Positions 5,114 through 63,372 of a stretch of 64,000 nucleotides of DNA are shown in pieces. This stretch comes from Bradyrhizobium sp. cir1 (GTDB taxonomy: Bacteria; Pseudomonadota; Alphaproteobacteria; Rhizobiales; Xanthobacteraceae). The notes beneath the pieces were generated by a model. The model was not told the origin of the DNA and did no database searches. It saw only the letters and a program-made list of their open reading frames with translations. The position numbers and the translations under genes are program-made. The DNA is taken from contig NZ_JACIHE010000002.1 of assembly GCF_014198245.1 (NCBI RefSeq), forward strand, positions 124,001 through 188,000, written 5' to 3'. How positions within the stretch are numbered: position 1 is the first letter of the stretch; each line of letters starts with the position of its first letter.

Positions 5114-6076
5114 GTGGCGATCAATTCCTTTCAATCGGAAGCGAGTATACGTGGTGCGCGAATGCTGCGCAGCGCGCTTGGCTCGGCGATTTCGGGCTAC
5201 CTCGAAGATCAAACGATCATCGAGGTGATGCTCAATCCGGATGGGCGTCTGTGGATCGACAGGTTGTCGAATGGCTTGGTCGACACTGGTGAAACACTGT
5301 CCGCGGCAGATGGTGAGCGCATCGTCCGGCTTGTGGCGCATCACGTGGGCGCGGAGGTCCACGCCGGTTCTCCCCGCGTCTCCGCGGAGTTGCCGGGGAC
5401 CGGCGAGCGCTTCGAAGGCCTGTTACCCCCTGTCGTCACTGCGCCAGCCTTCGCTATCCGCAAGCCTGCTGTCGCCGTGTTCACGCTTGATGATTACGTC
5501 GCTGCAGGAATCATGGACTCGGCGCAAGCCCGGACATTGAGGGGCGCGGTCGCGGCTCGCAAGAACATCCTCGTTGCCGGCGGCACATCGAGCGGCAAGA
5601 CAACGTTGACCAACGCTCTTCTCGCCGAGGTCGCCAGGACTTCCGACCGCGTCGTCCTGATCGAGGACACCCGCGAACTTCAGTGCAAGGCGCCCAATCT
5701 CGTGGCGCTGAGGACCAAGGACGGCGTAGCCACTCTGTCTGACCTGGTTCGCTCTTCGCTTCGATTGCGTCCGGATCGAATCCCGATCGGCGAAGTGAGA
5801 GGTGCTGAAGCGCTCGACCTCCTCAAGGCCTGGGGCACAGGCCATCCCGGCGGCGTCGGTACCATTCATGCCGGCACCGCGCTGGGCGCGCTGCGGCGTC
5901 TTGAGCAACTCATCCAGGAAGCAGTCATCACGGTTCCGCGTGCGCTGATCGCTGAGACTATCAACGTCGTCGCTGTGCTCGCCGGCCGCGGACCCGACCG
6001 GCGGCTCACGGAACTCGCCATCGTCACGGGGCTCGGGAGCGCCGGTGACTATAGCTTTGTACCAGCAGGAGACTGA
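5114..6076 (+). CDS. trbB: Conjugal transfer ATPase TrbB (VirB11 family)
   Basis: A 320-residue hexameric traffic ATPase of the type IV secretion apparatus, located at the cytoplasmic face of the inner membrane, where it powers pilus assembly and substrate transfer. The Walker A box GGTSSGKT is at residues 156-163, the ED-containing strand [10 protein letters not shown] at 180-189, and the GEVRG secretion-ATPase motif follows, then [13 protein letters not shown]-terminal [10 protein letters not shown] (38-47) is typical of TrbB. The GTG start is preceded by a GGGG-rich stretch; an internal ATG at 5162 is an alternative. trbC starts one base after its stop. Confidence 0.95.
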
Positions 6077-6077
6077 T

Positions 6078-6401
6078 ATGCGTCCGCAACTTCGCTTTCG
6101 TCGAGCCGTTTCTCTGGCATTTTTCGGTGCTGTTTTTCTCATGTCGACGCCGGCACGAGCGGCTGGTTCGAACATGCCGTGGGAGCAGCCACTCAATCAG
6201 ATCTTGCAGTCCGTTGAAGGTCCGGTCGCGAAGATCATCGCCGTCATCATCATCGTGGTGACCGGGCTCACGCTCGCGTTCGGGGACTCGTCAGGCGGCT
6301 TCCGCAGGCTGATCCAGATCGTGTTCGGTCTGTCGATCGCGTTTGCCGCATCGAGCTTCTTCCTGTCGTTCTTCTCCTTCGGCGGCGGGGTGGTGATCTG
6401 A
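6078..6401 (+). CDS. trbC: Conjugal transfer protein TrbC (VirB2-like pilin)
   Basis: A 107-residue prepilin with a long signal peptide ending near an A-R-A-A site (residues about 28-31) and two hydrophobic segments (about 52-70 and 82-101), the plan of the cyclised TrbC/VirB2 pilus subunits. The start at 6078 is one base after the trbB stop; an upstream in-frame ATG inside trbB is rejected because the signal peptide begins at 6078. The stop overlaps the trbD start by one base (TGATG), indicating coupled translation. Confidence 0.93.
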   Translation: MRPQLRFRRAVSLAFFGAVFLMSTPARAAGSNMPWEQPLNQILQSVEGPVAKIIAVIIIVVTGLTLAFGDSSGGFRRLIQIVFGLSIAFAASSFFLSFFSFGGGVVI

Positions 6402-6664
6402 TGGATGATCAAGTCACAGGCTTTGTCGTGCCCGTCCACCGCGCGCTTACCGAGCCAATCCTGATGGGCGGCGCCCCGCGGTCGGTTGCGATCGTCAATG
6501 GCACGCTTGCGGCAGCCCTTGGGCTGGGATTGCGGCTCTGGATTGCGGGTCTTGTCCTCTGGTTCATCGGCCACATGGCTGCCGTCTGGGCCGCCAAACG
6601 CGATTCGGCCTTTGTCGATGTGGTGCGCCGGCATCTGCGCATTCCCGGTCATCTCAATCTCTGA
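6401..6664 (+). CDS. trbD: Conjugal transfer protein TrbD (VirB3-like)
   Basis: An 87-residue inner-membrane protein of the mating channel. The hydrophilic start VPVHRALTEPILMGGAPR is the TrbD/VirB3 hallmark, followed by two membrane segments (about 28-43 and 45-64) and a short basic cytoplasmic tail. VirB3-type proteins associate with the VirB4/TrbE ATPase, whose gene follows with about 10 bp spacing. Confidence 0.93.
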   Translation: MDDQVTGFVVPVHRALTEPILMGGAPRSVAIVNGTLAAALGLGLRLWIAGLVLWFIGHMAAVWAAKRDSAFVDVVRRHLRIPGHLNL

Positions 6665-6674
6665 GTTCTCGGTC

Positions 6675-9116: not shown

Positions 9117-9844
9117 GGCGTCTTGGCCAATTGGCGGCGGCCGGCACCGTCGCGCTGATGCTTGGCGTCGCGGTGCCCACGCACGCGCAGTGGATCGTAT
9201 TTGATCCCAACAACTACGTTCAGAATGTCCTGACGGCCGCGCGGGAGCTGCAGCAGATCAACAACCAGGTTACCTCGTTGCAGAACGAGGCGCAGATGTT
9301 GATCAACCAGGCCAGGAATCTGGCAAACCTGCCGTATTCGTCGCTGCAGCAACTGCAATTATCGATCCAGCGCACCCAGCAATTACTGGCCCAGGCCCAG
9401 CGCATTGCCTACGACATCCAGCAGATCGACCATGCCTTCTCGACAAGTTACGCGCCAGCGACCAGTAGCCAGTCGAACCAGTTGCTGATCTCCAACGCTC
9501 AATCGCGATGGCAGAATGCCTATGCCGCGACACAAGACGCGCTTCGTGTCCAGGCCGGCATCGTGGGCAACCTCGACACCAATCGCATCCAGACGTCAGC
9601 CCTCGTAACCTCGAGCCAGAGTGCCAGTGGTGCCTTGCAGGCAACTCAGGCCGGCAACCAGATCCTCGCGATTCAAGCGCAACAACTTGCCGATCTCACA
9701 GCGGCCGCGGCGGCGCAGGGCAGGGCGCAGAGCCTCGAAGCCGCTCAGCGCGCCTCGGCTCAGGATCAGGGGCGAGAGCAGCTCAGGCGTTTTCTGACAC
9801 CAGGACAGGGCTACCAATCCTCCAATGTGCAGATGTTCCACTGA
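9113..9844 (+). CDS. trbJ: Conjugal transfer protein TrbJ (VirB5-like)
   Basis: A 243-residue periplasmic or pilus-tip protein with a signal peptide (cleavage after THA, residue about 25). The mature part begins WIVFDPNNYVQNVLTAARELQQINNQ, characteristic of TrbJ, and continues as long Gln-rich helices consistent with coiled coil. The start overlaps the trbE stop by four bases and the stop overlaps the next start, so translation is coupled on both sides. Confidence 0.93.
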   Translation: MRRLGQLAAAGTVALMLGVAVPTHAQWIVFDPNNYVQNVLTAARELQQINNQVTSLQNEAQMLINQARNLANLPYSSLQQLQLSIQRTQQLLAQAQRIAYDIQQIDHAFSTSYAPATSSQSNQLLISNAQSRWQNAYAATQDALRVQAGIVGNLDTNRIQTSALVTSSQSASGALQATQAGNQILAIQAQQLADLTAAAAAQGRAQSLEAAQRASAQDQGREQLRRFLTPGQGYQSSNVQMFH

Positions 9845-10215
9845 TGACCGACATAAGGGCATTCAAGGCGCTGTCGCTGCTTACGACAATCGGCCTGGTG
9901 GCCGTCGCGACCTGCACGCTTCAGCTGCGTGGCCGAGACGAAGCCGGGGCGGCGCCGAAGGCTGATCAGAGGACTGATGCAGCCAACGCCGACCTCGTAC
10001 ACTGCCGCGGCGTCACTCCGGAGGAAACGGCAGACTATCGTCGCCACTGCCAGCAGATATGGGCCGAAAACCGGCGCCGCTTCCTTGGCACGAAAGGCGG
10101 CGTCGTCGCTCCCGGCCACGATGACCCAACCAGCTCGGTACCTGCCCAAAAGGATCAAAGCCGGATCCCGCAGGGGTATTCGAACCTGGCGACACCCGAG
10201 GCCAGCAAGCCATGA
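9844..10215 (+). CDS. trbK: Putative entry exclusion protein TrbK (alternative family)
   Basis: A 123-residue membrane-anchored protein. A hydrophobic N-terminal segment (about 9-25) ends at Cys24, possibly a lipidation site. The motif HCRGVTPEETADYRRHCQQIW, with two cysteines and a Trp, is the signature of the TrbK-alt family placed between trbJ and trbL in rhizobial clusters. Entry-exclusion proteins act in the recipient to block redundant mating. Its start overlaps the trbJ stop (TGATG) and its stop overlaps the trbL start. Confidence 0.85.
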   Translation: MTDIRAFKALSLLTTIGLVAVATCTLQLRGRDEAGAAPKADQRTDAANADLVHCRGVTPEETADYRRHCQQIWAENRRRFLGTKGGVVAPGHDDPTSSVPAQKDQSRIPQGYSNLATPEASKP

Positions 10216-11441
10216 CTGGTACGGGGATCATTGACCAGTTCCTTGAAACGTTCACGCGCTATATCGACAACGGTTTTGGGCTGCTCGGCAGCGATGTCGG
10301 ATATCTCGCGACGACCCTCGCTGCGATCGACATCACGCTTGCCGCGTTGTTCTGGAGTTGGGGGCCTGACGAGGACATTATCGCGCGGCTTGTCAAGAAG
10401 ACGCTCTTCGTGGGGGTCTTCGCCTACCTGATCGGTAACTGGAACAGCCTGGCGCGCATCGTCTTCGAGAGCTTTGCCGGTCTTGGACTGAAAGCATCGG
10501 GCGCAAGCCTGTCCGCATCCGATTTCCTGAGACCTGGAAAAATCGCTCAAGTCGGGCTCGACGCCGGCCGACCGCTGCTCGATTCGATCTCGAACCTGAT
10601 GGGCTACATCAGCTTCTTCGAAAACTTCGTCCAGATTGTTGTTCTCCTGTTCGCATGGGTCGTGGTGCTACTCGCCTTCTTCATTCTGGCGATTCAGCTC
10701 TTTGTCACCCTGATCGAATTCAAGCTTACGACGCTGGCCGGGTTCGTGCTCATTCCATTTGGCTTGTTTGGCAAGACCGCCTTCGCAGCAGAGCGGGTAT
10801 TAGGCAACGTCGTTTCCTCAGGGATCAAAGTCCTTGTTTTGGCCGTCATCGTCGGCATCGGCTCGACCCTGTTCTCGCAGTTCACCGCTGGCTTTGGTGG
10901 CAATCAGCCAACGATCGAAGACGCAATGACATTGGTGCTTGCCGCGCTCTCCTTGTTGGGCTTGGGTATCTTCGGTCCTGGTATCGCGAACGGCCTGGTG
11001 TCGGGCGGACCCCAACTCGGTGCCGGTGCCGCGATTGGAACAGGCCTTGCTGCCGGCGGAATTGTTGCCGCGGGCGCCGGTCTCGCGGCCGGCGGTGCTG
11101 GCCTCGCCGGCGGCGCGATTGCAGGCGCCGCGCGCAGTGGTGGAGCTGTCATCAGCGGAGCATCAGCCGCCTATCGAAGCGGCGGCCTTGCCGGTGTCGC
11201 GGAGGCCGGCGCTTCCGCTGCGATGAGCCCGTTGCGTCGTGCAGCGGCTGCGCTCGGCAGAGGTGGGGAAGCCGGCGCGCATGGTGCGAGCACTTCCGCC
11301 GAAGGGCAGCCCGATTGGGCGCGGCGCATGAAGCGTGCCGAGACTGTTCGGCACGGTGCGTCGGCAGTCAGCCACGCGGTCCGCTCAGGTGATCACGGCG
11401 GCGGCGGCTCTTCCGTCGATTTGTCTGAAGGAGAGCGCTGA
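10212..11441 (+). CDS. trbL: Conjugal transfer protein TrbL (VirB6-like)
   Basis: A 409-residue polytopic inner-membrane protein forming part of the translocation channel. It begins MTGTGIIDQFLETFTRYIDNGFGLL, characteristic of TrbL, with about six hydrophobic segments up to residue 270, then a low-complexity Gly/Ala-rich region (about 270-350) and a hydrophilic tail ending in Gly/Ser. The tail is cytoplasmic in models of this family. A gap of 99 bp to trbF is the only sizable break inside the cluster. Confidence 0.93.
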   Translation: MTGTGIIDQFLETFTRYIDNGFGLLGSDVGYLATTLAAIDITLAALFWSWGPDEDIIARLVKKTLFVGVFAYLIGNWNSLARIVFESFAGLGLKASGASLSASDFLRPGKIAQVGLDAGRPLLDSISNLMGYISFFENFVQIVVLLFAWVVVLLAFFILAIQLFVTLIEFKLTTLAGFVLIPFGLFGKTAFAAERVLGNVVSSGIKVLVLAVIVGIGSTLFSQFTAGFGGNQPTIEDAMTLVLAALSLLGLGIFGPGIANGLVSGGPQLGAGAAIGTGLAAGGIVAAGAGLAAGGAGLAGGAIAGAARSGGAVISGASAAYRSGGLAGVAEAGASAAMSPLRRAAAALGRGGEAGAHGASTSAEGQPDWARRMKRAETVRHGASAVSHAVRSGDHGGGGSSVDLSEGER

Positions 11442-11540
11442 CGCTTAGCTACTGCGCCTTCGCCAGCCGCTGCGCGGGCGACTGAAACGCGGACACCGAA
11501 CAACTCGAAAACGATCACTTGATCTCAGGGGCAACTATCG

Positions 11541-12224
11541 ATGTTCAAACGACCTTCCGTACACTACGGGCGCATGCCCGAGCCGATCACGCCTTACCAA
11601 AAGGCAGCGCAGGTTTGGGACGAACGCATTGGATCTGCCCGTGTGCAGGCCAAAAACTGGCGCTTGATGGCGTTCGGCTGCCTCATGCTGTCAGCAGGTC
11701 TCGCTGCTAGTCTTGTCTGGCAATCGAGCCAGGGCTCGATCACGCCCTGGGTGGTCGAAGTCGATCATCTTGGCCAGTCCCAAAGAGTTGCGCCGGCTAA
11801 CATCGACTATCAACCGACTGACGCGCAGATCGCCTGGCATCTGGCGCGCTTCATCGAAGATGTCAGAGGCCTGCCAACCGACGGCATCGTTCTGCGCCAG
11901 AACTGGCTCCGGGCCTATGATTTTACGACCGATCGGGGCGCCGCTGCGCTCAACGACTACGCGCGCAACAATGACCCCTTTGCCAGGCTGGGCAAGGCGC
12001 AGATCTCCGTCGACGTCTCGAGCGTCATTCGCGCGTCGTCGGAAAGCTTTCGCGTCGCGTGGACCCAGCGCATCTACGACAACGGCTCGTTGAGCTCGAC
12101 TGAGCGTTGGACTGCAATTCTCTCGATCGTGATCGAGACGCCGCGTGATGCCGAGCGCCTGCGCAAGAATCCCCTTGGCGTCTATGTTCGCGCCATCAAC
12201 TGGTCAAAGGAGTTGAGTCAGTGA
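11541..12224 (+). CDS. trbF: Conjugal transfer protein TrbF (VirB8-like)
   Basis: A 227-residue bitopic inner-membrane protein. A short cytoplasmic N terminus with NPYQKA-like EPITPYQKAAQVWDERIG is followed by one membrane helix (about 41-62) and a periplasmic VirB8-type domain containing WVVEVDHLGQ and the terminal ILSIVIETP..LRKNPLGVYVRAINWSKEL pattern. VirB8 proteins bridge inner-membrane and core complexes. Stop overlaps the trbG start. Confidence 0.94.
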   Translation: MFKRPSVHYGRMPEPITPYQKAAQVWDERIGSARVQAKNWRLMAFGCLMLSAGLAASLVWQSSQGSITPWVVEVDHLGQSQRVAPANIDYQPTDAQIAWHLARFIEDVRGLPTDGIVLRQNWLRAYDFTTDRGAAALNDYARNNDPFARLGKAQISVDVSSVIRASSESFRVAWTQRIYDNGSLSSTERWTAILSIVIETPRDAERLRKNPLGVYVRAINWSKELSQ

Positions 12225-13255
12225 CCAAGACGCCGCCTGACGTTCATTCGAGACGTTTCCTCCCGCACGGCAAGTTCAATTCGCCTCGGTCCAGGTTCGT
12301 GACCCCGAGGCGAGTCCTTCTGTCAGCGCTCTTGCTTGGCTCGTCGGCACTCGGTGGGTGCGCGACCTACATTCCGCCGGAGATCAGCTATGACGCGGAG
12401 GTCCCGCCGCTGCCGGCGGCTCCAGCGGCTCTGGACGACAGGTCGCGGCCGCTTCACGTACCACCGCTCTGGAGGCCGGCTCTCGGCGGCAAGTCGGGAG
12501 GGAAGGAAGACGCTGAACCCGTGAGCCGGGTTGAGACGGCAAATAGCGCGGCCCGCGTCGAACCGCGCAAGCGGGGGTATTTCAATGCGGCACAAATCTA
12601 TGCCTACAGTCCCGGAGCGCTCTATCAGATTTATGCTGCCCCGGGGCAGATTACGGATATCGCGCTCGAGGAGGGAGAACAGTTGACGGGATCGGGGCCT
12701 GTCGCGGCCGGAGATACCGTGCGCTGGGTCGTAGGAGATACCGAGAGCGGGAACGGCGACACGCGCCGCGTCCACATCCTGGTCAAGCCGACCCGCGCAT
12801 CAATCGAGACCAACCTGGTCGTGAATACCGATCGGCGCACCTACCTGATCGAGCTCCGCTCCCGCGAGCGGCCATATATGCCATCCGTTGCCTGGTACTA
12901 TCCGGAAGCGGCGCGCGAACGATCCCGTTCGATCGCCCTGAAGCCCGTTCTTCCGGACCCGGCGCAGCGCATCTCTCGCTATGCCATCGAAGGGGACAGT
13001 CCGCCCTGGCGACCGCTCGCCGCCTATGACGATGGCCGAAAGGTCTACGTCGAATTCCCGCAAGGCATCGTGCAAGGCGAGATGCCTCCGTTCTTTGTGA
13101 TTGGCCCTGACGGCAGGACCGAACTCGTCAACTACCGCGCCTACGGCAACGTGTTGATCGTTGATCGACTGTTTGCAGCCGCCGAACTCCGACTTGGCGG
13201 TGAGCACCAGCAGAAGGTCAGGATTGTCAGGACCGACGGGAGGCCATCGTCATGA
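12221..13255 (+). CDS. trbG: Conjugal transfer protein TrbG (VirB9-like)
   Basis: A 344-residue periplasmic and outer-membrane core subunit. A hydrophobic segment ends in the lipobox-like LGGC with Cys47, suggesting lipidation after removal of an unusually long leader; an internal start closer to residue 25 is possible. The domain from about residue 110 carries VirB9 features (INLAxG-like ITDIALEEGEQL, GDTVRWVVGDTESG, and the C-terminal VYVEFPQGI...PPFFVIGPDG). TrbG, TrbI and TrbH-type proteins make the outer channel. Confidence 0.93.
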   Translation: MTKTPPDVHSRRFLPHGKFNSPRSRFVTPRRVLLSALLLGSSALGGCATYIPPEISYDAEVPPLPAAPAALDDRSRPLHVPPLWRPALGGKSGGKEDAEPVSRVETANSAARVEPRKRGYFNAAQIYAYSPGALYQIYAAPGQITDIALEEGEQLTGSGPVAAGDTVRWVVGDTESGNGDTRRVHILVKPTRASIETNLVVNTDRRTYLIELRSRERPYMPSVAWYYPEAARERSRSIALKPVLPDPAQRISRYAIEGDSPPWRPLAAYDDGRKVYVEFPQGIVQGEMPPFFVIGPDGRTELVNYRAYGNVLIVDRLFAAAELRLGGEHQQKVRIVRTDGRPSS

Positions 13256-14463
13256 ACACTCGGAACGCCAACGATCCCGAGCAAGCAGCTCCGCCGGCGA
13301 CACAAAGGGAGCATCCCGAGAGCTTCCGCCTGAGAGCAGAGCATCCGCCTGTGACACGGTTGTCGCGACATACCCTGGCCGGCGGGAGCGCGGTTGCCCT
13401 GCTCGTCATCGGCGGTGCGGTGCTATGGTCGTTGCAAAACAATGGCTCTCGTAATCAGGCGACCGACGAGCTCTACAGCACTGACCACCACAATGTTGCC
13501 GATGGCATTACGACACTGCCGAAGGACTATGCTGGCGTCCCGCGCCAGCCAATCCCGCAACTTGGTCCACCACTGCCCGGGGACCTCGGTCGACCGATCC
13601 TTGCCGCTCAAGGCCAGTTGCCGACAAGCGGGGCTGATCCGGACCAGCAGCGCCGGGATCAGGAGACCGAAGCAGCCCGCATCAGTCATTTATTCGCTTC
13701 GACCAATGGGCGAGAAGTGCGCCCGTCAGTCGGTGGAGTTGTTGGCAGCGAGCGCGTCGTGCCGCCGAACGCAACGAGCGCTGGCGACGATGGACCCGCG
13801 CAAAACGGTCAGGACCGCAAGCTTGCCTTCGTGAACGCTTCTGTGGACCGTCGTACGGTCAGCCCTGACCATGTCAGCAAGCCCGCCTCACCTTACATCG
13901 TGCAGGCCGGGACAGTGATTCCGGGAGCCCTGATCACCGGGATACGATCGGACCTGCCAGGCCAGATCACGGCGCAGGTTACCGAGAACGTCTTTGACAC
14001 GCCGACCGGCCGCTTTCTGCTTGTGCCTCAGGGAGCGCGCCTGATCGGGATCTACGACAGCCAGGTCACTTTCGGCCAGTCCCGCGTCCTGCTCGTCTGG
14101 ACCCGGCTGATCATGCCGAACGGACGTTCTATCGTTCTCGAGCGGCAGCCTGGCGCCGACGCTGCCGGCTATGCCGGTCTCGAAGACCAGGTCGACAATC
14201 ACTGGGGTGAACTTTTCAAGGCTGCGGCACTATCGACGTTTCTGGCGGTCGGGACCGAACTGGGAGCCGGCTCCGATACCAACAGCAACGACAGCGCAAT
14301 TGTCCAGGCATTGCGGCATGGCGCTTCGGATTCACTGAACCAGACCGGACAGCAGGTGGTTCGGCGCAGTCTCAATATACAGCCGACGCTGACTGTGCGG
14401 CCCGGCTTCCCGGTTCGCGTTATCGTCAATCGAGATCTTGCACTTGCCCCGTATGGAACGTGA
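13252..14463 (+). CDS. trbI: Conjugal transfer protein TrbI (VirB10-like)
   Basis: A 403-residue protein spanning the envelope: cytoplasmic N terminus, a single membrane helix (about 43-62), a Pro-rich linker, and a VirB10 beta-barrel domain starting near residue 210 with YIVQAGTVIPGALITGIRSDLPG and GRFLLVPQGARLIGIYDS. The C terminus FPVRVIVNRDLALAPY is typical. It overlaps the trbG stop (ATGA) and is followed by the DUF2274 gene in GTGA overlap. Confidence 0.95.
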   Translation: MNTRNANDPEQAAPPATQREHPESFRLRAEHPPVTRLSRHTLAGGSAVALLVIGGAVLWSLQNNGSRNQATDELYSTDHHNVADGITTLPKDYAGVPRQPIPQLGPPLPGDLGRPILAAQGQLPTSGADPDQQRRDQETEAARISHLFASTNGREVRPSVGGVVGSERVVPPNATSAGDDGPAQNGQDRKLAFVNASVDRRTVSPDHVSKPASPYIVQAGTVIPGALITGIRSDLPGQITAQVTENVFDTPTGRFLLVPQGARLIGIYDSQVTFGQSRVLLVWTRLIMPNGRSIVLERQPGADAAGYAGLEDQVDNHWGELFKAAALSTFLAVGTELGAGSDTNSNDSAIVQALRHGASDSLNQTGQQVVRRSLNIQPTLTVRPGFPVRVIVNRDLALAPYGT

Positions 14464-19798: not shown

Positions 19799-19960
19799 CC
19801 AAGTCAGGGAGGAAACGCCCCGGGGGGCTGCCGCAGGAGTTGCCCACGGCATCTGTCGCCGATCGCTCGACGGACATGCATCGGACTCGAGCACGGTCAC
19901 CGAACTCTTTGTCTTAGCGGTGGTAAGGTATCGCTATTCCCAACCCGACTTAAGAGCAGA

Positions 19961-48064: not shown

Positions 48065-48076
48065 GGCTCAACCTCG

Positions 48077-54918: not shown

Positions 54919-55984
54919 GTCGGCGAGCTACGTCATGCGGCTAACTGCGAACGGCCGCAATCGACGCTGCGACTCTGCGAAGAAGCAATTCCGCCCCCTC
55001 ATCTTCGGTGCGAGCGAGCCGACAACATTTCAAGGACTCGAGTGTCATCGCGCCCGGGCGAGAGCTTTCCGTTTTTGTTCCCATTCGATTTCTCCTGGCC
55101 CGGCGCGACATCGCAAATGGCGTGCCCCGAAACCAGGCGGAGGATCAGAAGATGGCTAAGATGACGGCAAAGAGGACCGGGACTGCGAAGAGAGGAAAGA
55201 GTGCGGCCGGGGCCCGATTTAAACATATCGGTCGATGGCCCGGTAGTCGCGGTTGATCGTCAGAGCGGCACGTGTTCACCCAAGAGCGTCATGCCCGGTC
55301 AATCGGAATGATTGATCCGACGATCGAATCTGTCTTGAAAATGCTCCTTGGTCGGCGCGTTGCGGTTCGTTCACGGCATTTCTGGTGCGAAACTGGAGCG
55401 GTCGCGCGATGGCGTTGGCTGTGCTGGCCGCCCAAAAGTCGCTCGACAACTTTTGCTTGTTGGAGGGGATGGAAATCCTTGAGAGCCTCGCCTATCGAAA
55501 GGCTGCGTGATCGCGCGCCGTCCGACCCGGGTCTCGCCGCGCAGCTGCTCAAAGAGAATAGCCCGCCAACTGTGCCGCTCTGGCGCGTACAACGAAGCCC
55601 TATCTCGGCAACTAAGCCGGAACGATCGGCGAGAGCCTGAACGGTGACCCCGCCCGCGGGACGACGCCCGCGACGCCGTCATGACGTCGGGCAATGACCG
55701 CCGGGCCGGTGCGTACTTCGACGCCCGGCCTGCCGTATGCGAGGGTCGTAGCGTAGCTGACCGCCTCGGACCGGATGACTTTAGCCGTTTGCCCCTCGCT
55801 TTGCGAAGCAATACCACCGGTCTTTCGGCGGCTAGATGGCCACCAGTTCGGCTAGCTTGGCCGCGACGTCGGCCATCGGCAGTTCTGCGGCATTCCGACG
55901 AGACTAAATTCAATTGCCAATTCAATGCAGGTTTATCGGTGCCTTTGTCGGAATGGGTCTTGATTTTCTAATGAGATCATACGC
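54919..55984. other. Decayed or non-coding region between defence locus and tRNA fragment
   Basis: About 1.07 kb without a clear gene. On the minus strand short protein-like runs appear in changing frames (for example LPMADVAAKLAELVAI near 55860 and SYATTLAYGRPGVEVRTGPAVI near 55700), as in a broken gene. Its position beside the att-like sequence would suit a degraded recombinase or transposase, but no signature residues are visible. Confidence 0.35.
55152..55256 (+). CDS. Possible 34-residue basic peptide
   Basis: ATG 55152 has GGAGG 8 bases upstream. The product MAKMTAKRTGTAKRGKSAAG is Lys/Arg-rich and ends GRWPGSRG. Good ribosome-binding site but no homology is recognised. Confidence 0.25.
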   Translation: MAKMTAKRTGTAKRGKSAAGARFKHIGRWPGSRG

Positions 55985-56029
55985 CTCTTAATCAGCGGGT
56001 CCCAGGTTCGAGCCCTGGTGCGCCCACCA
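55985..56029 (+). other. 3' fragment of a tRNA-Lys(CTT) gene, att-like site
   Basis: Forty-five bases match the 3' part of an alphaproteobacterial tRNA-Lys with anticodon CTT: anticodon loop CTCTTAA, the stem side TCAG, variable loop, the T-arm CAGGTTCGAGCCCTG and the acceptor end GCGCCCACCA. The bases before CTCTTAA do not complete the anticodon stem, D-arm or 5' acceptor, so this is a fragment, not a gene. Tyrosine-recombinase elements duplicate exactly such 3' segments. In this orientation the element should lie to the left, with the intact tRNA and integrase at its other end. Confidence 0.8.
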
Positions 56030-56322
56030 CTACAAAAACCTTCATCTCCAATAACTTCGCGAGGTGGCCGGCCGAGAACAAGGCGCTCCCGCGCGACGTA
56101 TTCTAGGTTCCGAATTGCACGCTGTTTCGTTGCATGGCTTTTCCTTTGTTTCCGCATCTACATCCCCTTCGATACAGCGTGCCGATCCGATGATACAGGC
56201 CGATCCGCCCTCGTCGTAGAATAGGGTATTAAAGCGAGCGAAACGGACAATCTGGACAGTCGCGCCGCAAGGATGACCTCCTCGTAAACCAACAGCTTCA
56301 GTTAATCGTCCGGCAGTGGCGG

Positions 56323-57102
56323 TCAACTCCGATGCGACAATTGCGTCACTGCGCGACCGGCAGCGGGAATACCCGCCGATAGTCCGCCGTCGACGGCGAT
56401 GGTTTGGCCGGTGATCATCGATGCCTTCTCGGAGACCAGAAACGCGACCGCGTCGGCAACGTTCGCAGGACTTGAAATTCGCGGCAGCGGGCAAAGCGCT
56501 TGCAATTCGTCGAATACGCCTGGGTTGGCTTCGAGGCGAGCGTTCCAGGCGCGGGTTCGGACAGTCCCTGGCGCGACAGCGTTCACTCGGACGCCATGGG
56601 GTCCAAGTTCGACGGCCAGGGATTTCGTCAGATGGATCAAGGCCGCCTTTCCGGCGCTGTAGCCCGGAAAGCCGAAAACGCCGAGCCCATTGACAGTCGC
56701 GATGCTGACGATGCTCCCTTGCTGCGCAATCAGCTGATCGCGAAACGCCTGAATGCAAAGAAATGCAGAGTCGAGATTGGCGGCGATGTCCTCACGCCAG
56801 ATGGCATAGTCCATCGTGAAGATCGAAGTTCCCTTCGCTCGACCAACCGTGTTTACGAGAGCCGTAATATTCCCGAGCTTCATTGCTTCGGTTGCTGCAG
56901 CAGAAACCGAAGCAGGATCGGTAGCATCTACTCTGAACGAAACGGCCTGACCACCTTCCATGCGGATGCCCGAGCAGACCGCTTCCGCCCGCTCTTCATT
57001 TAGATCGACGCAGACAATGCCAAACCCGTCGCGCGCAAGAGTCTGACAAATAGCGCTGCCGATATCTCCGGCGCCCCCGGTGACGAAAGCCCAATTGGTC
57101 AT
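56323..57102 (-). CDS. Short-chain dehydrogenase/reductase
   Basis: A 259-residue NAD(P)-dependent oxidoreductase. Cofactor motif TGGAGDIGS at the N terminus, the NTVG strand, catalytic Ser in SIVSIATVNG and Tyr/Lys in YSAGK, and a GQTIAVDGGLSAG C terminus as in the classical FabG-like group. The start at 57102 begins the conserved MTNWAFVTGG; the frame is open to 57222. It follows the amidase by about 10 bp and ends the operon. Confidence 0.92.
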   Translation of the reverse strand: MTNWAFVTGGAGDIGSAICQTLARDGFGIVCVDLNEERAEAVCSGIRMEGGQAVSFRVDATDPASVSAAATEAMKLGNITALVNTVGRAKGTSIFTMDYAIWREDIAANLDSAFLCIQAFRDQLIAQQGSIVSIATVNGLGVFGFPGYSAGKAALIHLTKSLAVELGPHGVRVNAVAPGTVRTRAWNARLEANPGVFDELQALCPLPRISSPANVADAVAFLVSEKASMITGQTIAVDGGLSAGIPAAGRAVTQLSHRS

Positions 57103-57112
57103 GCCTAGTCCT

Positions 57113-58543
57113 TTACGATGTTGCGTGGAGGTGAGGTGGGCGATGTTGTGCCCAGGGGCGCGCCGTCTCGAACCGAGATGCCAGCTGCAAGACGCCGAGA
57201 TCGTCGAAGCGCCGTCCGACAACCTGCAGCCCGACCGGAAGCCCGTCTCGTGTGAATCCGCAAGGGATTGAGGCAGCCGGATTGCCCGACAAGTTGAATG
57301 GGTATGAGAACTCCGCCCAGCTCAACCAGTCCCAGGGGTGTTGCGGCCAATGAGCTGGCTGTAGGCGATCCGCTGGAAATGCGGCCACGGACACGGAAGG
57401 TGTGACGAGGAAGTCCCAATCCTCGAAGAAGCGGTGGATGTCGACCGCATAGGCGTACTTCTTCGGCCGCATGCTTTGGTACTCAGCAAGCGTGTAGTTC
57501 ATTCCGGCGCGGATACAAGTTACGAACCCCCGATCCATCTTCGCCTCCCACTCGGGCAGGAGCGATGCATGGCGGGCGGCAAAATGTGCTGGCCAGAAGA
57601 AGCGAGCGAGCTCTGGACCATGCGGACCCCAGGCCGGCGTGATTTCCTCGACCGTGAGACCCAGTTCGGCTTCGAAGACCTTGACTGCCGAGGAAACTAG
57701 TTCAGCGACCTCCGGGTCGACACGCGCATGGCCAAGATCAGGACTGAAAGCGATGCGCAGGGGGCGAGGAGGGGTGTCATGCAGTCGGCTGGGATAATCT
57801 GCCGGCAGGGACTCCAAGCTGGTCTGATCCCATGGATGAGGTCCGGCCATCACCTTCAGCATCAGACTCGCGTCAGCGACGCTGCGTGTTATTGGCCCCA
57901 GGTGGAGGGTGTTGTCGCCGGTGGAAGGGGGATAGATCGGAACGCGACCATATGTCGGCTTCAGCCCGAATACGCCGCAGAAGTGCGCAGGCATGCGGAT
58001 CGAGCCGGCGCCGTCTCCGCCTTGGTGAAGCGGCCCATACCCCGCGGCTGCTCCGACGCCCGCGCCCGACGAAGAGGCGCCGGCATTGTAGCCATGCTTC
58101 CACGGGTTATGCGTCGTCCCGGTCAAGGGCCCTTCGCTGACCCCTTTCCAACCAAACTCCGGCGTTGTGGTCTTGCCCAGGATGATCGCGCCCGCGTCCC
58201 GCAGCCGCGTGATCATCGGCGTGGTGAAATCCGGCGTCTTGCCCTTGCTGGTGAAACTGCCGAACTCCGTCGGTAGTCCTGCGATTGCTTCGTGGTCCTT
58301 GATCGTGACCGGGACGCCATGCAGGGGGCCGAATGCTTCCCCATTCATGAGGGCCCGTTCGGCTTTTCGCGCTTGGTCCAGCGCCATCTCCGGGGTCAAC
58401 CGGGCGAAGGCATTTAGACGCGGCTCCAGACGTTCAATCCGTTCGAGAATGGCTTGCACGAGCTCTACTGGGGACAGGGCTCGCGATTGGTACAAACGCG
58501 TTAGCTCAGCAGCGGACGCGAAACAAAGGTCTTCGGCGTTCAT
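57113..58543 (-). CDS. Amidase (amidase-signature family)
   Basis: A 476-residue hydrolase of carboxamides. The Ser-cis-Ser-Lys triad is visible: Lys82 in PVTIKDHEAIAG, the serines of YNAGASSSGAG (157-159), and Ser181 in GDGAGSIRMPA. Length is normal. The glycine-rich stretch reads GASSSGAGVGAAAG rather than the common GGSSGGS, a small deviation. It lies between the binding-protein gene and the SDR gene in one operon. Confidence 0.93.
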   Translation of the reverse strand: MNAEDLCFASAAELTRLYQSRALSPVELVQAILERIERLEPRLNAFARLTPEMALDQARKAERALMNGEAFGPLHGVPVTIKDHEAIAGLPTEFGSFTSKGKTPDFTTPMITRLRDAGAIILGKTTTPEFGWKGVSEGPLTGTTHNPWKHGYNAGASSSGAGVGAAAGYGPLHQGGDGAGSIRMPAHFCGVFGLKPTYGRVPIYPPSTGDNTLHLGPITRSVADASLMLKVMAGPHPWDQTSLESLPADYPSRLHDTPPRPLRIAFSPDLGHARVDPEVAELVSSAVKVFEAELGLTVEEITPAWGPHGPELARFFWPAHFAARHASLLPEWEAKMDRGFVTCIRAGMNYTLAEYQSMRPKKYAYAVDIHRFFEDWDFLVTPSVSVAAFPADRLQPAHWPQHPWDWLSWAEFSYPFNLSGNPAASIPCGFTRDGLPVGLQVVGRRFDDLGVLQLASRFETARPWAQHRPPHLHATS

Positions 58544-58549
58544 ACGACA

Positions 58550-60139
58550 TCAGCCCTTCTTTAAATTCCAGAAGACGGGCATGCCGTCGACCATACCCGT
58601 CAGATTTGAGCGATAGGCCGTCGGTTGGTAGTAGAACCCGAGCGGAATGTACGGCACATCCTCGAAAGCCTGTCTTTGCATCGAGTCGATGATCTTCTTT
58701 TGCTCGGCCGTATCGGCTGTGCTCATGAAGGCATCACGGTAGCCTTCCAGAGCCGCGCTGGTCGGCCAGCCGGCTCCCGAGAAGCCGTTGGCGCCGATGC
58801 CTCTCAGGAAGGTGTGACTGATCGGGTTAAGCCCCAAGATACCTGACGTATAGTTGCACCAGACACTCCAGCCACCGCGGTCGACTGGCTGCTGCGAATT
58901 GAGCCGGGGCAGTACCGTTCCCCAATCCATCGCCTGGTAGTCAAGATTGACGCCGCTACGTCGGAACATATCCGCGGCGATTTCGCTCATCGCATTCAGA
59001 GAAGGGATGTCGGTGGGGACCAGAAATACGACCTTCTCGCCATTGTATCCGGCCGCATGAAGCTCCTTTTTGACCTTCTCGACGCTGCGCGGCTGCTTGA
59101 AGACATCCAGGCCCACATCGCTGGCTGAAGGGGAGTTCGGCAAGAAGAAGCCGACGTCGTCCTTCCAGAGGCTATGGTCCTCGCCCATCACCGCGGTCAT
59201 GTAATCGGCCTGGTTCACGGCGGCGAGAAAGGCACGGCGAATGGCCGGATTGTTGAACGGCGGCTGCAGGTGGTTGAACTGCAAGAGTGCAAGATAACCA
59301 GCCTTGTCCTTGACGTCGACAGTCACGCCGCGCAATGACTTGAGCTGAGGTAGAAGATCGGCAGTAGGCTGCTCCCACCAATCCATCTCGCCGACCCGAA
59401 GAGCTGCCGCGGCAGTCGAGGCATCGGGCAACGTGTGCCACTCGACGCGATCGAGGTGAACGATCTTCCCTCCCGCGGTGAAGCCTGGGACCTCTTGCCG
59501 GGGGATATAACCCGCGAACTTCTCATAAACGGCGCGCGTGCCGGCCATACGCTCGTCGGCCAGGAATCGGAAGGGACCACTTCCGATCATTTCAGTTATC
59601 TGCTTAGAGGGGTCTGTCTGGGCGAGACGCTCCGGCATAATGAAGCAACACCTTGACGGCTTGCCGAGCGCAAAGGGCAACGAGGGAAACGGTTGCTTCA
59701 GCCGAAAACGGATGGCCTTGTCAGTGGGCGCAGACAGTTCATCTGTGATAGCGGCGAGCTGCTTGCCCAAGACGTCGAGGCGCCACCAGCGCTCGATGCT
59801 CGCCACTGCATCTTTTGCGCGAACCGGAGTGCCGTCGTGAAAACTCAGCCCTTCGCGCAAGGTGATGGTCCAGCGTCGGCCGTCATCTTCCACGAGGTGG
59901 CCGGCGGCCATCTGTGGCTGGATCGTGAACGATGCGTCCATTCCGTACAGGGTGTCAAAGACCATCAGGCCGTGGTTGCGGCTCACCAGGGCTGGGCTTT
60001 GGACCGGGTCCAGGAGGGCCAAGTCCGCCTGAGGGACGAATTTCACGACCTGTCGGCTCTGTGCTCGACTCACTGCGGGACTGAACAACGGCAGTATCGA
60101 TGCGCCTGCGCCTTTGAGGAGGGTTCTGCGAGTGACCAT
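58550..60139 (-). CDS. ABC transporter substrate-binding protein (family 5), without adjacent permease
   Basis: A 529-residue Tat-exported binding protein (TRRTLLK at residues 3-9, then a hydrophobic stretch). Family-5 signs: ALLDPVQSPALVSRNHGLMVFDTLYGMD, ITLREGLSFHDGTPVRAKDAVASIERW, and IRRAFLAAVNQADYM. No permease or ATPase gene lies in the window, so the transporter parts must be elsewhere or it borrows another system. A TTTTGATAT half-site precedes its start. Confidence 0.92.
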   Translation of the reverse strand: MVTRRTLLKGAGASILPLFSPAVSRAQSRQVVKFVPQADLALLDPVQSPALVSRNHGLMVFDTLYGMDASFTIQPQMAAGHLVEDDGRRWTITLREGLSFHDGTPVRAKDAVASIERWWRLDVLGKQLAAITDELSAPTDKAIRFRLKQPFPSLPFALGKPSRCCFIMPERLAQTDPSKQITEMIGSGPFRFLADERMAGTRAVYEKFAGYIPRQEVPGFTAGGKIVHLDRVEWHTLPDASTAAAALRVGEMDWWEQPTADLLPQLKSLRGVTVDVKDKAGYLALLQFNHLQPPFNNPAIRRAFLAAVNQADYMTAVMGEDHSLWKDDVGFFLPNSPSASDVGLDVFKQPRSVEKVKKELHAAGYNGEKVVFLVPTDIPSLNAMSEIAADMFRRSGVNLDYQAMDWGTVLPRLNSQQPVDRGGWSVWCNYTSGILGLNPISHTFLRGIGANGFSGAGWPTSAALEGYRDAFMSTADTAEQKKIIDSMQRQAFEDVPYIPLGFYYQPTAYRSNLTGMVDGMPVFWNLKKG

Positions 60140-60164
60140 GTCGTGCGCTCCGTAAATTCCTCAG

Positions 60165-60173
60165 TTTTGATAT
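60165..60173. promoter_or_regulatory. Half-site of the GntR operator upstream of the binding-protein gene
   Basis: TTTTGATAT, 26 bases before the binding-protein start, matches one arm of the palindrome at 62490-62509. A single 9-mer match can occur by chance. Confidence 0.3.
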
Positions 60174-60210
60174 TGCAAGGCAACTCACGCGGCGCCCCGA
60201 TCGCCGTGCT

Positions 60211-61512
60211 TCAAAAATAGGTCCTCAGGGACCGTGTGATCCGATAATCATCGTCGACCACGTGTACGATCCTCCACTTGTCGAATGTCAAACAAGGGTG
60301 CGAGATACCAAGCGCCACCATGTCTCCCACGCTGAGCTGCGAATCCGCGGGCAGCGTCATGTGGCAGTGCTGATCATTCAGTCCTGTGACCTTGTGCCCT
60401 GGAGGGATCGGCAGAGGTCTCGCCATCCCGCTGTTCGGTCGAAACCAGTTCAGTGCAACGGGCGGCTCATCATGGGAGATGTCGCGTTTACCCAATCCAA
60501 GGATTGCCTTCTCAGGCTCGGGACGCGACTGGACGTAGCTCCAGACTTCGAGTGCCGGGCGGAGCCCCTCGTCGTTCCCGACGATGGCTGGGCTACGCTC
60601 GCGAAGCCGCTCGAATGCGCGCGTGTACATGATGGCGTCGTGCGTGATGTAGCAACCAGATCGCAGGACCACGTGATGTGGCCGACCGAGACGAGCTTGC
60701 TTGAGTTTGGTCGCCACGAGGTCGAAATAGGACGATCCGCCTGCGCTCAAGATCGGCTCGCCCGCTGAGAACAGATGCTCCGCTGCGCACCGTTCCGCCA
60801 GATCGACCATGCAGTCGAGAAACGCTTCGACTTTGGCAGTCGCCTCGGCTGGATGAGGCGAATTGAGCAGACCCTCGAAACCTTCGATTCCCACCAAGCT
60901 AAGTCCGGCCGTTGCCGCAACGAGGCGAGCGAGATCGAAAGCTTGGGCGACGGAGCGGCACCCCGTGCGTCCGCCCGGATAACCCAGCTCGACGAGCACA
61001 TTCACCGCTCGCGGCAATCGCATCATCGATGCTTGTCGCGCGATGGATTTGGCATTCTCGGCGTCGTCGACAAGGCAATAGAACTCGAAATCCGGGTCGT
61101 CGCGGATTTCCGAGAGAGCGAATTCGATCGCAGAGCGCCCGACAAGCTGGTTTGCCAGGAATATCCTGCCATGGCCGAATGCTCTGGCGACTCTTATTTG
61201 ATGCGTCGTGGATAGAGTGATCGCCCACGCACCGTCCGCGATCTGGAGATCGAACAGATCGGGCGCCATCGTCGTTTTGCCGTGGGGAGCGAACCGGACA
61301 CTTTGGGCACTCAAGAACCGCTTCATCCAGTTGCTGTTGTGCCGCAGCGCCGATTCCTTGATGACGGCCACAGGTAGGGGGAGGTCTTCTCTCAGAATCT
61401 CCCAGCCTTGCTCGGGTACATCGTCGAGCAAGACGTTCGCGGAGGTTGGCGGAACGCCCTTTTCCCAGGGCGCCAGACCAGCCTGAGCGATCCCCGATTT
61501 TGACTTGTTCAT
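60211..61512 (-). CDS. D-amino-acid deaminase (D-serine dehydratase/alanine-racemase-fold, DSD1-like)
   Basis: A 433-residue PLP enzyme of fold type III. The cofactor lysine is K79 in APHGKTTMAP. Further features: PGGRTGCRS, GGSSYFD, and the zinc-type LNDQHCHMTLP...GISHPCLTFDKW near the C terminus, as in eukaryotic-type D-serine dehydratases and D-threonine aldolases. It overlaps the lactonase gene by four bases. Probable role: deamination or cleavage of a D-amino acid released by the amidase; inference. Confidence 0.88.
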   Translation of the reverse strand: MNKSKSGIAQAGLAPWEKGVPPTSANVLLDDVPEQGWEILREDLPLPVAVIKESALRHNSNWMKRFLSAQSVRFAPHGKTTMAPDLFDLQIADGAWAITLSTTHQIRVARAFGHGRIFLANQLVGRSAIEFALSEIRDDPDFEFYCLVDDAENAKSIARQASMMRLPRAVNVLVELGYPGGRTGCRSVAQAFDLARLVAATAGLSLVGIEGFEGLLNSPHPAEATAKVEAFLDCMVDLAERCAAEHLFSAGEPILSAGGSSYFDLVATKLKQARLGRPHHVVLRSGCYITHDAIMYTRAFERLRERSPAIVGNDEGLRPALEVWSYVQSRPEPEKAILGLGKRDISHDEPPVALNWFRPNSGMARPLPIPPGHKVTGLNDQHCHMTLPADSQLSVGDMVALGISHPCLTFDKWRIVHVVDDDYRITRSLRTYF

Positions 61513-62444
61513 TGCTCGGCCTCTCGTACAAAGCGCGGCTCCGACTCGCAGGAGCCGGCGTCGTCCCGCAGAATTCCGAAGACGCCCTCGGAAACGCCCG
61601 TGGTATCTGTGCGAAAGGAGATGACCGTCCCGGTCTCTGCTCTCCCAGAACGATCCGTCGCGAGCGAGGTGACGAAGACGGTTTTTCCGTCAAGTCCGCC
61701 GAAGCAAGGCATCGTGGGTGCGGACACCGGCAAGGTTATGCTGTCGACGAGCGCGCCGTCGGGCGCGAACCTGTTGATGCAACCCGCTGTCACGCCGGCG
61801 CTCCAGTACAGGCCATTCACATCAACGGCTGCACCGTCCGGAAGTCCGTCTTTCTCGGTGAGAACTGCGAACGATCTAGCCCTTCCGAGGTGACCAGAAC
61901 GTGCGTCGAAATCGAACGCGCGGATCTCGCCCGAGTGACTGCTCGCGCGACTATCGGCGTGATACATGGTTCGGGCATCGGGGCTCCAAGCCAGCCCATT
62001 CGATACCTTGAGACCATCAATGACACGTTCGCAGGAGCCGGTCGGGGTAATTCGATAGAGGGCTCCGGAAGCCGCGCGTGGGATGGCGTCGTGCATGCTG
62101 CCAACCCAAAAGCAACCATCGGGGCCGATCCTGCCGTCGTTCAGGCGGTTCGTCGTACGGTCGGGCTCAGGGTGAACGAGAAGATCGAGCGTCTCCCGCG
62201 CAGGATCGAACAGGTGGATCCCACTTCTCAGGGCGGCGACAAGACGACCATCCTGAGCCAAAGCAAGACTGCCGACCGCAGATGGCATCGCATACGCGGC
62301 CGATTTTCTGGTCTTCGGGTCGACCCAATGGATCGCCGGCGACACGATATCGACGAACCAGAGTACGTTTCGGGTGGTGTCCCACACCGGGCTTTCGCCG
62401 ATCGCAAGACCAAAATCGATGAGTGTCACGAAGCTGATAGTCAC
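61509..62444 (-). CDS. SMP-30/gluconolactonase-family lactonase
   Basis: A 311-residue six-bladed beta-propeller hydrolase. Metal-site segments are visible: GESPVWD with Glu near the N terminus, RLNDGRIGPDGCFWVGSM with the Asn, SNGLAWSPDARTMYHADS with Asn and Asp, and DGLPDGAAVDVNGLYW. Members open sugar lactones or hydrolyse similar esters. First gene of the minus-strand operon, reading away from the GntR gene. Confidence 0.92.
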   Translation of the reverse strand: MTISFVTLIDFGLAIGESPVWDTTRNVLWFVDIVSPAIHWVDPKTRKSAAYAMPSAVGSLALAQDGRLVAALRSGIHLFDPARETLDLLVHPEPDRTTNRLNDGRIGPDGCFWVGSMHDAIPRAASGALYRITPTGSCERVIDGLKVSNGLAWSPDARTMYHADSRASSHSGEIRAFDFDARSGHLGRARSFAVLTEKDGLPDGAAVDVNGLYWSAGVTAGCINRFAPDGALVDSITLPVSAPTMPCFGGLDGKTVFVTSLATDRSGRAETGTVISFRTDTTGVSEGVFGILRDDAGSCESEPRFVREAEQ

Positions 62445-62489
62445 CGAAAAAGCCCTGCTCCCTGGATCTCGCCGAAGCTCACAATACCA

Positions 62490-62509
62490 ATTTTTGATAT
62501 ATCAAAAAT
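62490..62509. promoter_or_regulatory. Perfect 20-bp palindrome, likely GntR/FCD operator
   Basis: ATTTTTGATATATCAAAAAT is a perfect palindrome in the 202-bp region between the divergent lactonase operon and the GntR gene, the expected place and AT-rich form for a FadR/FCD-type operator. It lies 46 bases before the lactonase start and would block both promoters. Confidence 0.75.
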
Positions 62510-62552
62510 GGCTATTTGTCCAATTTGGGACGAAATCTACTTTTTTACAGGG

Positions 62553-62562
62553 TTTTTGATAT
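62553..62562. promoter_or_regulatory. Second half-site of the same operator
   Basis: TTTTTGATAT repeats one arm of the palindrome, 44 bases further on, closer to the GntR start. It may serve cooperative or autoregulatory binding. Confidence 0.45.
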
Positions 62563-62646
62563 GCCGTATGCCTCTAAATTGGGCGCGGGCTTGCCTTTTG
62601 TGGAGCCATAGCCGCAGATGCAGGCCCTGAGGAAATGGGATCGAGA

Positions 62647-63372
62647 ATGAGCGCGGATGTGATCGAGCCGGCGGCTCGGGAGGAAGTCCCACGCGACAGC
62701 CTGTCGGAGCGCGTCTACGCGCAACTGCGTCTCGAATTGATGATGGGCATGTACGAGCCCGGCGCGCGTCTGAACATTCGCCGGATCGCCGCCAACTACG
62801 ACATCTCACCGACGCCTGTCCGAGAAGCGGTGATGCAACTCGTGCGTGAGGGCGCGTTGGAGCTAAAGCTCGGGCATCAAGCTCGAGTCCCGATCTTGAG
62901 CGTGCGTGAATATATCGAAATTCGCGAAACGAGGGCGCCTCTGGAGCGCTTGGCGAGCGAGTTAGCTGCTGTGCACATTACCAAGGATGAAATCGCATCA
63001 CTGCGCGATTTGCACCGCCGCTTCGTCGAGGCCGAACGTGAAGGGAGGTGGAAAGACGCACTGGCAGTCAATCAGGAGTTTCACTTCCTCATCTATCGAA
63101 GCAGTCAGAACGCAACGCTCGTCAGGGTGATCGAGAATCTATGGCTTCTGATTGGACCGTTCATCAACCATCAGTACCCCCTGGTTCAGCGCGCTCACAT
63201 CGAGCTTCATCCTCACCTTCTCGTCATCGATGCCCTTGAGCGGAAATCCCCCAGCGAAGCCGGCGAACTGATCGTGCGGGATCTTCGGGAGGGATCCTAT
63301 CTCATTCTCTCTCATCTCGGAGACGAGAAGGGCAAGAAACGACGAGGCCGGAAATCAGGAGCCGGCAACTGA
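62647..63372 (+). CDS. GntR-family regulator (FadR/FCD subfamily)
   Basis: A 241-residue regulator with an N-terminal winged helix (about 20-80; LSERVYAQLRLELMMGMYEPGARLNIRRIAANYDISPTPVREAVMQL) and a helical FCD ligand domain with the metal-type residues D..H (NQEFHFLIYRSS, ELHPHLLVIDAL). Divergent from the lactonase-deaminase-amidase operon across a perfect palindrome, so it probably represses that operon and itself. ATG 62647 is favoured over 62635, which has its ribosome-binding bases too close. Confidence 0.92.
   Translation: MSADVIEPAAREEVPRDSLSERVYAQLRLELMMGMYEPGARLNIRRIAANYDISPTPVREAVMQLVREGALELKLGHQARVPILSVREYIEIRETRAPLERLASELAAVHITKDEIASLRDLHRRFVEAEREGRWKDALAVNQEFHFLIYRSSQNATLVRVIENLWLLIGPFINHQYPLVQRAHIELHPHLLVIDALERKSPSEAGELIVRDLREGSYLILSHLGDEKGKKRRGRKSGAGN

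Follow-up and report, generated by a model that had tools for sequence, protein, structure and literature searches.

A tRNA-Lys(CTT)-derived attachment core in Bradyrhizobium as a probable tandem junction of two mobile elements, away from its tRNA gene

Partial copies of tRNA genes often raise the question of which mobile element they bound, and the fragment studied here poses it sharply. It lies in a 64-kb stretch of DNA (the window, C2:124001-188000) of Bradyrhizobium sp. cir1, whose genome (G000) comprises 75 contigs and 8.65 Mb; C2 and C4 are two of these contigs. The original prediction read it as the 3' part of tRNA-Lys(CTT), starting at the anticodon loop and lacking the 5' half. This holds: the letters at window positions 55985-56029 (+), CTCTTAATCAGCGGGTCCCAGGTTCGAGCCCTGGTGCGCCCACCA, are identical in 45/45 bases to nt 32-76 of an intact tRNA-Lys(CTT) located by ARAGORN at G000:C4:214941-215016, and the identity extends to 46 bases if the next base is counted. 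The fragment starts in the anticodon loop, 2 bases 5' of the anticodon. Within the 64-kb window ARAGORN detects no tRNA and the sole Rfam match at gathering score is an sRNA, so the fragment is a 3' part only. (The sRNA match, to the suhB/mmgR-type family RF00519 with 42.5 bits, is at window 19761-19835 on the minus strand.) With up to 3 mismatches the genome holds two copies, the fragment and the intact gene, whether the last 37 nt or the full 45 nt are searched, and an exact 45-base match in 8.65 Mb excludes chance. A partial repeat of a tRNA 3' end thus coexists with an intact copy, as in tRNA-targeted integrative elements, and 55985-56029 is a genuine attachment core, a docking site for mobile DNA. 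The reading preferred here, at a probability of about 65%, is that this core is a tandem junction in an array displaced from tRNA-Lys, with a conjugative element ending at it from the left and a second mobile segment starting on its right. The features are collected in Table 1.

Table 1. Features around the attachment core (window positions unless a contig is named)
Feature	Position	Strand	Remark
intLys-family integrase ORF, 433 aa	C2:100420-101718	-	adjoins ECH 3' end
DUF3363/relaxase and T4CP (T4SS-DNA_transf) genes	C2:114.7-118.5 kb		
trb-type mating-pair genes: T2SSE/TrbB, TrbE, TrbL, VirB8/TrbF, CagX/TrbG, TrbI	5114..14463	+	colinear with tRNA-Lys elements of G105, G129
Left flank, probable P arm (class L1) of intLys-family attachment site	55891..55984	+	kept in other arrays; decamers at -94, -39
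Putative arm-type site 1, CATTCCGACG	55891..55900	+	-94 from core
Putative arm-type site 2, CATTCCGACA on minus strand	55946..55955	-	-39 from core
45-bp att core, nt 32-76 of tRNA-Lys(CTT)	55985..56029	+	45/45 identity with intact gene
Right flank, end module R1, second element class	56030..56254	+	most conserved ~56138-56254
Accessory cassette: SDR, amidase, solute-binding protein, D-serine dehydratase-like, GntR regulator	56290..63356	.	right of R1

The intact tRNA gene and the fragment do not enclose a single island. Left of the tRNA-Lys, C4 is syntenic with 9/9 relatives compared. On its right, G062 and G008 regain colinearity ∼143 and 132 kb after their own tRNA-Lys, and the matching backbone in this genome is C4:303685-311178, 88.7 kb right of the tRNA. 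With backbone on both sides on C4, the tRNA hot spot closes on its own contig. The stretch C2:88-99 kb is also backbone, matched at least partly in 23/23 relatives. The distance from C4:303685 to C2:88017 is 192,405 bp as predicted from G008 and 192,328 bp from the rest of C4 plus the start of C2, and this agreement within 77 bp suggests that C4 and C2 adjoin. In this contig order the tRNA core is 373.0 kb from the window core, to its left and on the same strand. Between the two loci are ∼205 kb (C4:303.7-408.0 plus C2:1-100.4) that are backbone at the tested stretches, which are both ends, and that keep the spacing of G008. It had been proposed that everything to the left of the fragment is island cargo; the transfer genes there likely do belong to an element, but the backbone-spaced DNA and the closure of the hot spot on C4 speak against one island reaching from the tRNA to the fragment. 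The suggested check for an intact tRNA-Lys(CTT) with a tyrosine recombinase to the left of the window finds the gene, by the contig order above, but leaves the recombinase unconfirmed. A stretch that resembles, by eye, a decayed integrase C-terminus is present on C4 just right of the intact tRNA-Lys (L007 ∼1740-2000, minus strand), with no support from PF00589 or from tblastn with the G056 integrase (1e-3). The stretch after the C4 tRNA is common to G143 at 87%.

The insert that holds the window begins at a protein gene, with no intact tRNA at its proximal end. Its left edge is at C2:100361-100363, 79.6 kb left of the core (C2:179985-180029), where four relatives (G105, G143, G008, and G129) cease to be colinear with C2; this point is the stop end of an enoyl-CoA hydratase (ECH) gene. 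After ECH these relatives carry on with shared backbone, and the 67-69 kb that follow ECH in them have no match in C2:1-228 kb (at least 400 bp, >75% identity). A duplicate ECH end was considered as the right boundary; up to C2:228 kb there is neither a second ECH 3' end (up to 7 mismatches) nor a second core, which counts against the junction reading.

Between ECH and the core, the block carries an integrase, a relaxase, a T4CP, and mating-pair genes, which is the gene content of an ICE, and these genes probably form one unit. The stretch C2:106286-143180, including the tra region, is colinear in blocks of 65-86% identity with G105:2425716-2451704, which is inside an element bounded by an intact tRNA-Lys (2403236) and a distal core (2585664). 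G129 has matches to parts of C2:102465-138659 within 578191-763045, again between tRNA-Lys and another core; the trb block is colinear there, and not every block keeps its order. In G125, a remnant of the same integrase family, termed intLys (85% over 111 aa), adjoins the intact tRNA-Lys, and another core with an L1 arm is found 182 kb on. However, DNA similar to C2:105-113 kb is present in 20/23 relatives, frequently more than once, and some copies lie outside tRNA-Lys arrays (for example G062:1862742, 90%). The colinearity with G105 is therefore weaker proof than it appears, and this DNA looks like a transfer module common to elements with different sites.

The cargo on this side was also expected to include defence genes; PADLOC at E 0.1 matched 0/9 ORFs tested between 44260 and 55925. 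A 564-aa ORF at window 50594-52288 (-) is an rpsC paralogue inside mobile DNA. Its residues 20-229 are ribosomal protein S3 (TIGR01009, 284.6 bits), with ∼75-77% matches in many genomes of the genus; the ORF has ∼330 further residues and a weak HEAT match below cut-off. At window 46739-49408 (-), a Tle1-like catalytic domain (48077-49408) adjoins a pentapeptide-repeat protein (46739-48064). DUF2235-annotated genes, presumably of the same superfamily as the Tle1-like domain, are found <200 bp from the core on plasmids p131_1 and p195_2.

The flanks of the core help identify the elements that meet there. Core and flanks were searched in 146 genomes of the genus, scoring 5 candidates in each; the intact tRNA also counts among the matches. 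Flank classes are termed L1-L4 to the left of the core and R1 or R2 to its right, and three-digit L numbers (such as L061) denote loci. Two modules emerged among the matches listed for the 146 genomes: R1, whose identity in these matches is mostly 70-79%, and L1. R1-like right flanks were seen in 36/62 examined. Cores are arranged in arrays, mostly oriented on a single strand, in 12 relatives chosen for several copies, with 5 cores over 208 kb in G123, 3 in G108, and 4 in G056. R1 is found directly 3' of an intact tRNA-Lys in 6/30 loci (L061, L066, L067, L074, L079, and L081), which identifies it as an element end. Its left neighbors vary: among 32 R1 sites these are intact tRNA (7), P arm (5), L2 (3), L3 (3), L4 (2), and other (12). 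Intervals opened by R1 close with L3 in G114, G108, and G056 and with L1 in G123. R1 thus most likely belongs to another element class, making the window site a junction; its core has a P arm on the left and R1 on the right, the arms of two element classes, as tandem accretion would leave them. The combination of P arm, core, and R1 also occurs on plasmid pCB82_1 and in G144, G118, and G072, so that it may be a fixed unit. Such a fixed L1-core-R1 attP is weakened by the varied left neighbors of R1 and is retained below as a rival. Plasmids carry the core as well, in 21 matched records, 13 of which are from Bradyrhizobium; 11 of these 13 and 2 of the 8 others were inspected.

Several further observations concern these modules. 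The most conserved part of R1 (56138-56254) contains a repeated TACAG..CGATCC pattern. R1 was considered as a gene and rejected, as the minus-strand start codon is not conserved by eye. PF00589 integrases were also sought near the site in the 12 relatives: among the matches listed, one adjoins a core (G056) and none is in the R1 intervals of G114, G108, G056, and G123. A CIME-like element, with att ends and no integrase, would look like this on the R1 side, although Pfam-invisible integrases exist. One R1-to-L3 interval of 28.7 kb lies between tRNA-Lys and a distal core (L197 plus L198, G114:6354400-6384400), and ends on the right with four ORFs whose sizes alone suggest, as a guess, Wadjet JetABCD. 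Sphingomonad plasmids of 36-40 kb (L035 and L036) carry an 88.9% copy of the core, which in L036 is 153 bp from a short Arm-DNA-bind_3 protein.

A spaced pair of decamers assigns the left flank. The decamer (consensus CATTC[CG]GACA, up to 1 mismatch) was first seen by eye in some L1, L109, and L309-L314 flanks; the arms next to integrases at tRNA-Lys were counted later and are the sole fresh test. In that test, the right flanks of intLys genes at a tRNA-Lys core contain the decamer in 17/17 cases, all at +33 to +36, with a second copy at +56 to +59 in 14/17, at +51 in one, and absent in L301 and L332. Across 86 distinct core sites, decamers are found in left flanks of class L1 (9/9), in few unclassed ones (4/25), and in none of L2 (0/7), L3 (0/7), L4 (0/5), or intact-tRNA (0/33) flanks. 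Among right flanks the counts are 0/20 for R1, 0/8 for R2, and 21/58 for others; shuffling predicts 0.009 per 150 bp. Ten of the 13 decamer-bearing left flanks, including that of the window, have the decamer at -94/-95 (plus strand) and -39 (minus strand). The exceptions are pCB82_1 (-74 and -39), one G064 site (-94 only), and one G123 site (a lone match at -34). These positions indicate that the left flank in the window is the P arm of an intLys-type attachment site, whereas R1, without a decamer, would not form a matched pair with it for intLys. No site bears both intLys arms (0/87), as expected for integrated ends. Together with the trb colinearity to tRNA-Lys elements and the L1 arm in G125, the P arm suggests that the fragment is most likely the right end of a conjugative element of the intLys family. 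Thus, of the proposal that the fragment is the distal repeat left by site-specific integration, the att core and the likely distal element end survive, given the integrase-type arm, the trb colinearity, and the tandem cores, but its pairing with the tRNA as the bounds of one island does not. Two observations count against the junction reading. The ECH-side flank of this genome's integrase contains no decamer, as is the case within 130 bp on the ECH side in 25/27 ECH-located intLys loci. In addition, the P arm and core of L293 (3648) and L089 (1501) are 0.6-0.9 kb away from the intLys gene at its N-terminal end, the reverse of the usual layout.

The 433-aa ORF next to ECH has no match in Pfam or NCBIfam. 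A phmmer search against the PDB returned nothing, a profile search returned one unrelated chain (E 0.18), and fold search alone identified the protein as an integrase. A relative 96% identical to the ORF was modelled from a 30-row alignment (mean pLDDT 71.2, pTM 0.44). The best PDB match of the model is lambda Int (Foldseek E 3.5e-6), with Tn1549 Int, XerA, XerD, and Cre beside or below it in the fold tables. VIA-align aligns 282 residues of the model with lambda integrase (Z 12.1, rmsd 15.7). For single domains the values are Z 11.8 and rmsd 1.8 (core-binding) and Z 5.8 (N-terminal arm-binding), the latter middling to low by VIA-align's own yardstick. R253, K281, R367, H390, and Y399, which we take to be the catalytic set R, K, R, H, Y of the fold, are invariant in 30/30 members. 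The model therefore predicts a lambda-type tyrosine recombinase fold, including an arm-binding domain, for intLys. The likeness to lambda integrase (PDB 1z1b, 1z1g, and 1kjk) is one of fold, N-terminal domain included, while full-length matches share 14% identity and PF00589 matches 0/30 aligned intLys members at E 0.1. Lambda attP has short sites in both arms around the core, as here. PF00589 has 12 matches in this genome at E ≤1, none on C2 or C4.

A genome scan for intLys gave 57 loci, which differ in what is found beyond the C-terminus: a tRNA-Lys gene or core in 17, an ECH 3' end in 27 (scored by tblastn), and other targets in 13. The 17 comprise 11 intact tRNA-Lys(CTT) genes (by pattern, with ARAGORN run on L283 only) and 6 bare cores (0-3 mismatches). 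Among the 13 others are tRNA-Gly(TCC) at L309, L310, L313, and L314 and tRNA-Arg(TCT) at L330. Plasmids pBb1S5a and p26S5b have a core 57 bp from an annotated 'hypothetical protein', which in pBb1S5a is an intLys member (locus L318).

Integrases at ECH sit at the edge of variable DNA, as among 22 ECH loci the ECH side is conserved (at least 1 kb shared in 223/231 pairs) and the other side is not (86/231). Gene integrity was scored in 34 near-full-length loci of the 57, in which the intLys gene is open in 21/22 at ECH and 7/10 at tRNA-Lys; decay is understated by these numbers, since they exclude partial matches (5 loci at ECH and 7 at tRNA-Lys). Across 184 pairs of ECH copies the median dN/dS is 0.094, which suggests purifying selection on many ECH-located intLys proteins. 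On a tree of 32 members the ECH label requires 3 changes versus 9.4 in shuffles, so that ECH-located copies appear clustered, and more than one origin is possible. In L317, the ECH stop is followed by what looks by eye like a gapped and degenerate version of the tRNA core. A speculative extension, for which the odds are long, is that intLys uses two unrelated targets, the 3' ends of tRNA-Lys(CTT) and of the ECH gene. Decamer-less ECH copies may then act in trans, and tRNA-type cores parked at ECH would become landing sites for integrase-less elements, a second hub copied from the tRNA.

The DNA right of the core is not chromosome: its first segment, R1, is an end module from a different element class. 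A search scoring 2 candidates per genome found the 7-kb cassette that follows at 90-91% in 3/265 genomes, where its context differs. It was considered as backbone and rejected, as both sides differ in G233, G206, and G244. Additional patches with matches in G233 and other genomes extend to C2:216 kb. GC content is mostly 0.57-0.60 from ∼C2:120 to 204 kb, a range that spans the core and includes a single 6-kb step at 0.62, and is 0.61-0.66 afterwards. Given R1, the cassette, and these patches, and with the post-ECH backbone absent as far as C2:228 kb, the fragment does not mark the end of accessory DNA, contrary to the original prediction.

A mechanism for the preferred junction can be outlined. 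The intLys integrase, of lambda type with an N-terminal arm-binding domain, would bind the decamers (CATTCCGACA) in both arms, on the left at -94 and -39 and on the right at ∼+35 and ∼+58. Strand exchange would then take place within the 45-bp core, itself a copy of the tRNA-Lys(CTT) 3' end, and each insertion would leave one core at its far end. Repeated insertions at one core would build tandem arrays, in which any left arm may abut any right module. The resulting block would read, in order, ECH 3' end (C2:100361), 433-aa integrase, relaxase and T4CP, trb genes, cargo, P arm with core, and an R1-type segment. C2:100361-180029 probably is or was one element, and it may have entered at ECH by site-specific recombination. 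The displaced array may have arisen by entry at ECH as a secondary target, by recombination between elements, or by both.

Other origins of the core are less probable to differing degrees. It may be a scar, that is, a complete attP-like site (P arm, core, and R1) brought in by a circular element or plasmid that reached this locus by another route or changed its integration site. A single core with conserved flanks on both sides, a combination also present on pCB82_1, would fit such a history, as would the related transfer modules at several genomic places, and part of PMC9239051 describes a detached att 'scar' on a Bradyrhizobium Sym plasmid. The 86-kb interval in G123 that starts with R1 and ends with L1 would give a circle carrying this very site. 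However, R1 stands behind many left neighbors across its 32 sites, its intervals close with L3 in three genomes, and its lack of decamers leaves it unmatched with the P arm for intLys, so that a scar is rather unlikely.

An island anchored at the intact tRNA-Lys(CTT) on C4, with the fragment as its distal repeat, gains from the tRNA being ∼373 kb to the left in direct-repeat orientation and from the integrase-like stretch seen by eye beside it. It is nevertheless very improbable: synteny already contradicts it, with upstream and downstream backbone both on C4 and ∼205 kb bounded by backbone between the two loci, given the spacing that joins C4 to C2. Exact conservation of all 45 bp, CCA included, might instead reflect a selected small RNA or pseudo-tRNA. 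This is scarcely credible for a core that adjoins 17/57 integrase genes and occurs in arrays and on plasmids, and Rfam has no match at 55700-56300 up to E 1 save a lncRNA at E 0.47.

The tandem junction has relatives among known systems. Parts of PMC11476347 describe a hot spot at the same tRNA gene, tRNA-Lys(CUU), in Sinorhizobium meliloti, with sequential insertion, att sites of 46 or 49 bp identical to the tRNA 3' end, and a double insertion whose two inserts are separated by a 46-bp copy. That array occupies the tRNA locus itself and is made up of islands and phage-related sequences, whereas here the core is ∼373 kb off, in a block starting at a protein gene. Bradyrhizobium symICEs, in the portions of PMC9239051 and PMC9174649 consulted, are modular elements of the same genus that switch sites and can leave a single att behind (site switching and att scars, PMC9239051). 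In contrast to tRNA-Lys, the targets named in those portions are tRNA-Val, ybgC, and tRNA-Ile, -Pro, -Glu, and -His; 'lys' has 0 occurrences in the main text of PMC9239051, and 'lysine' and 'tRNA-Lys' have 0 in the text of PMC9174649 at hand. Plasmid pPDL2 of Sphingobium fuliginis likewise carries an attP that matches a tRNA 3' end and is at the 3' end of int, according to part of PMC3516476; its target is tRNA-Ser, and it recombined with a cloned attB in a test. A literature search, with subscription papers mostly outside it, found no published tRNA-Lys or ECH element in Bradyrhizobium.

The site is a genuine att junction and as such ordinary in principle; its displacement, the arm code, and the two-target integrase family are what deserve attention. 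Island finders that pair a tRNA fragment with the intact gene would here wrongly call an island of ∼373 kb, ∼205 kb of which is apparent backbone. The spacing code (-94, -39, core, ∼+35, ∼+58) makes the ends of element families separable by sequence alone, and it exposes an integrase family missed by Pfam (30 members) and NCBIfam (1 member) and labeled 'hypothetical protein' in two plasmid records. Whether conjugative elements in Bradyrhizobium move between a tRNA gene and a protein gene thereby becomes directly testable.
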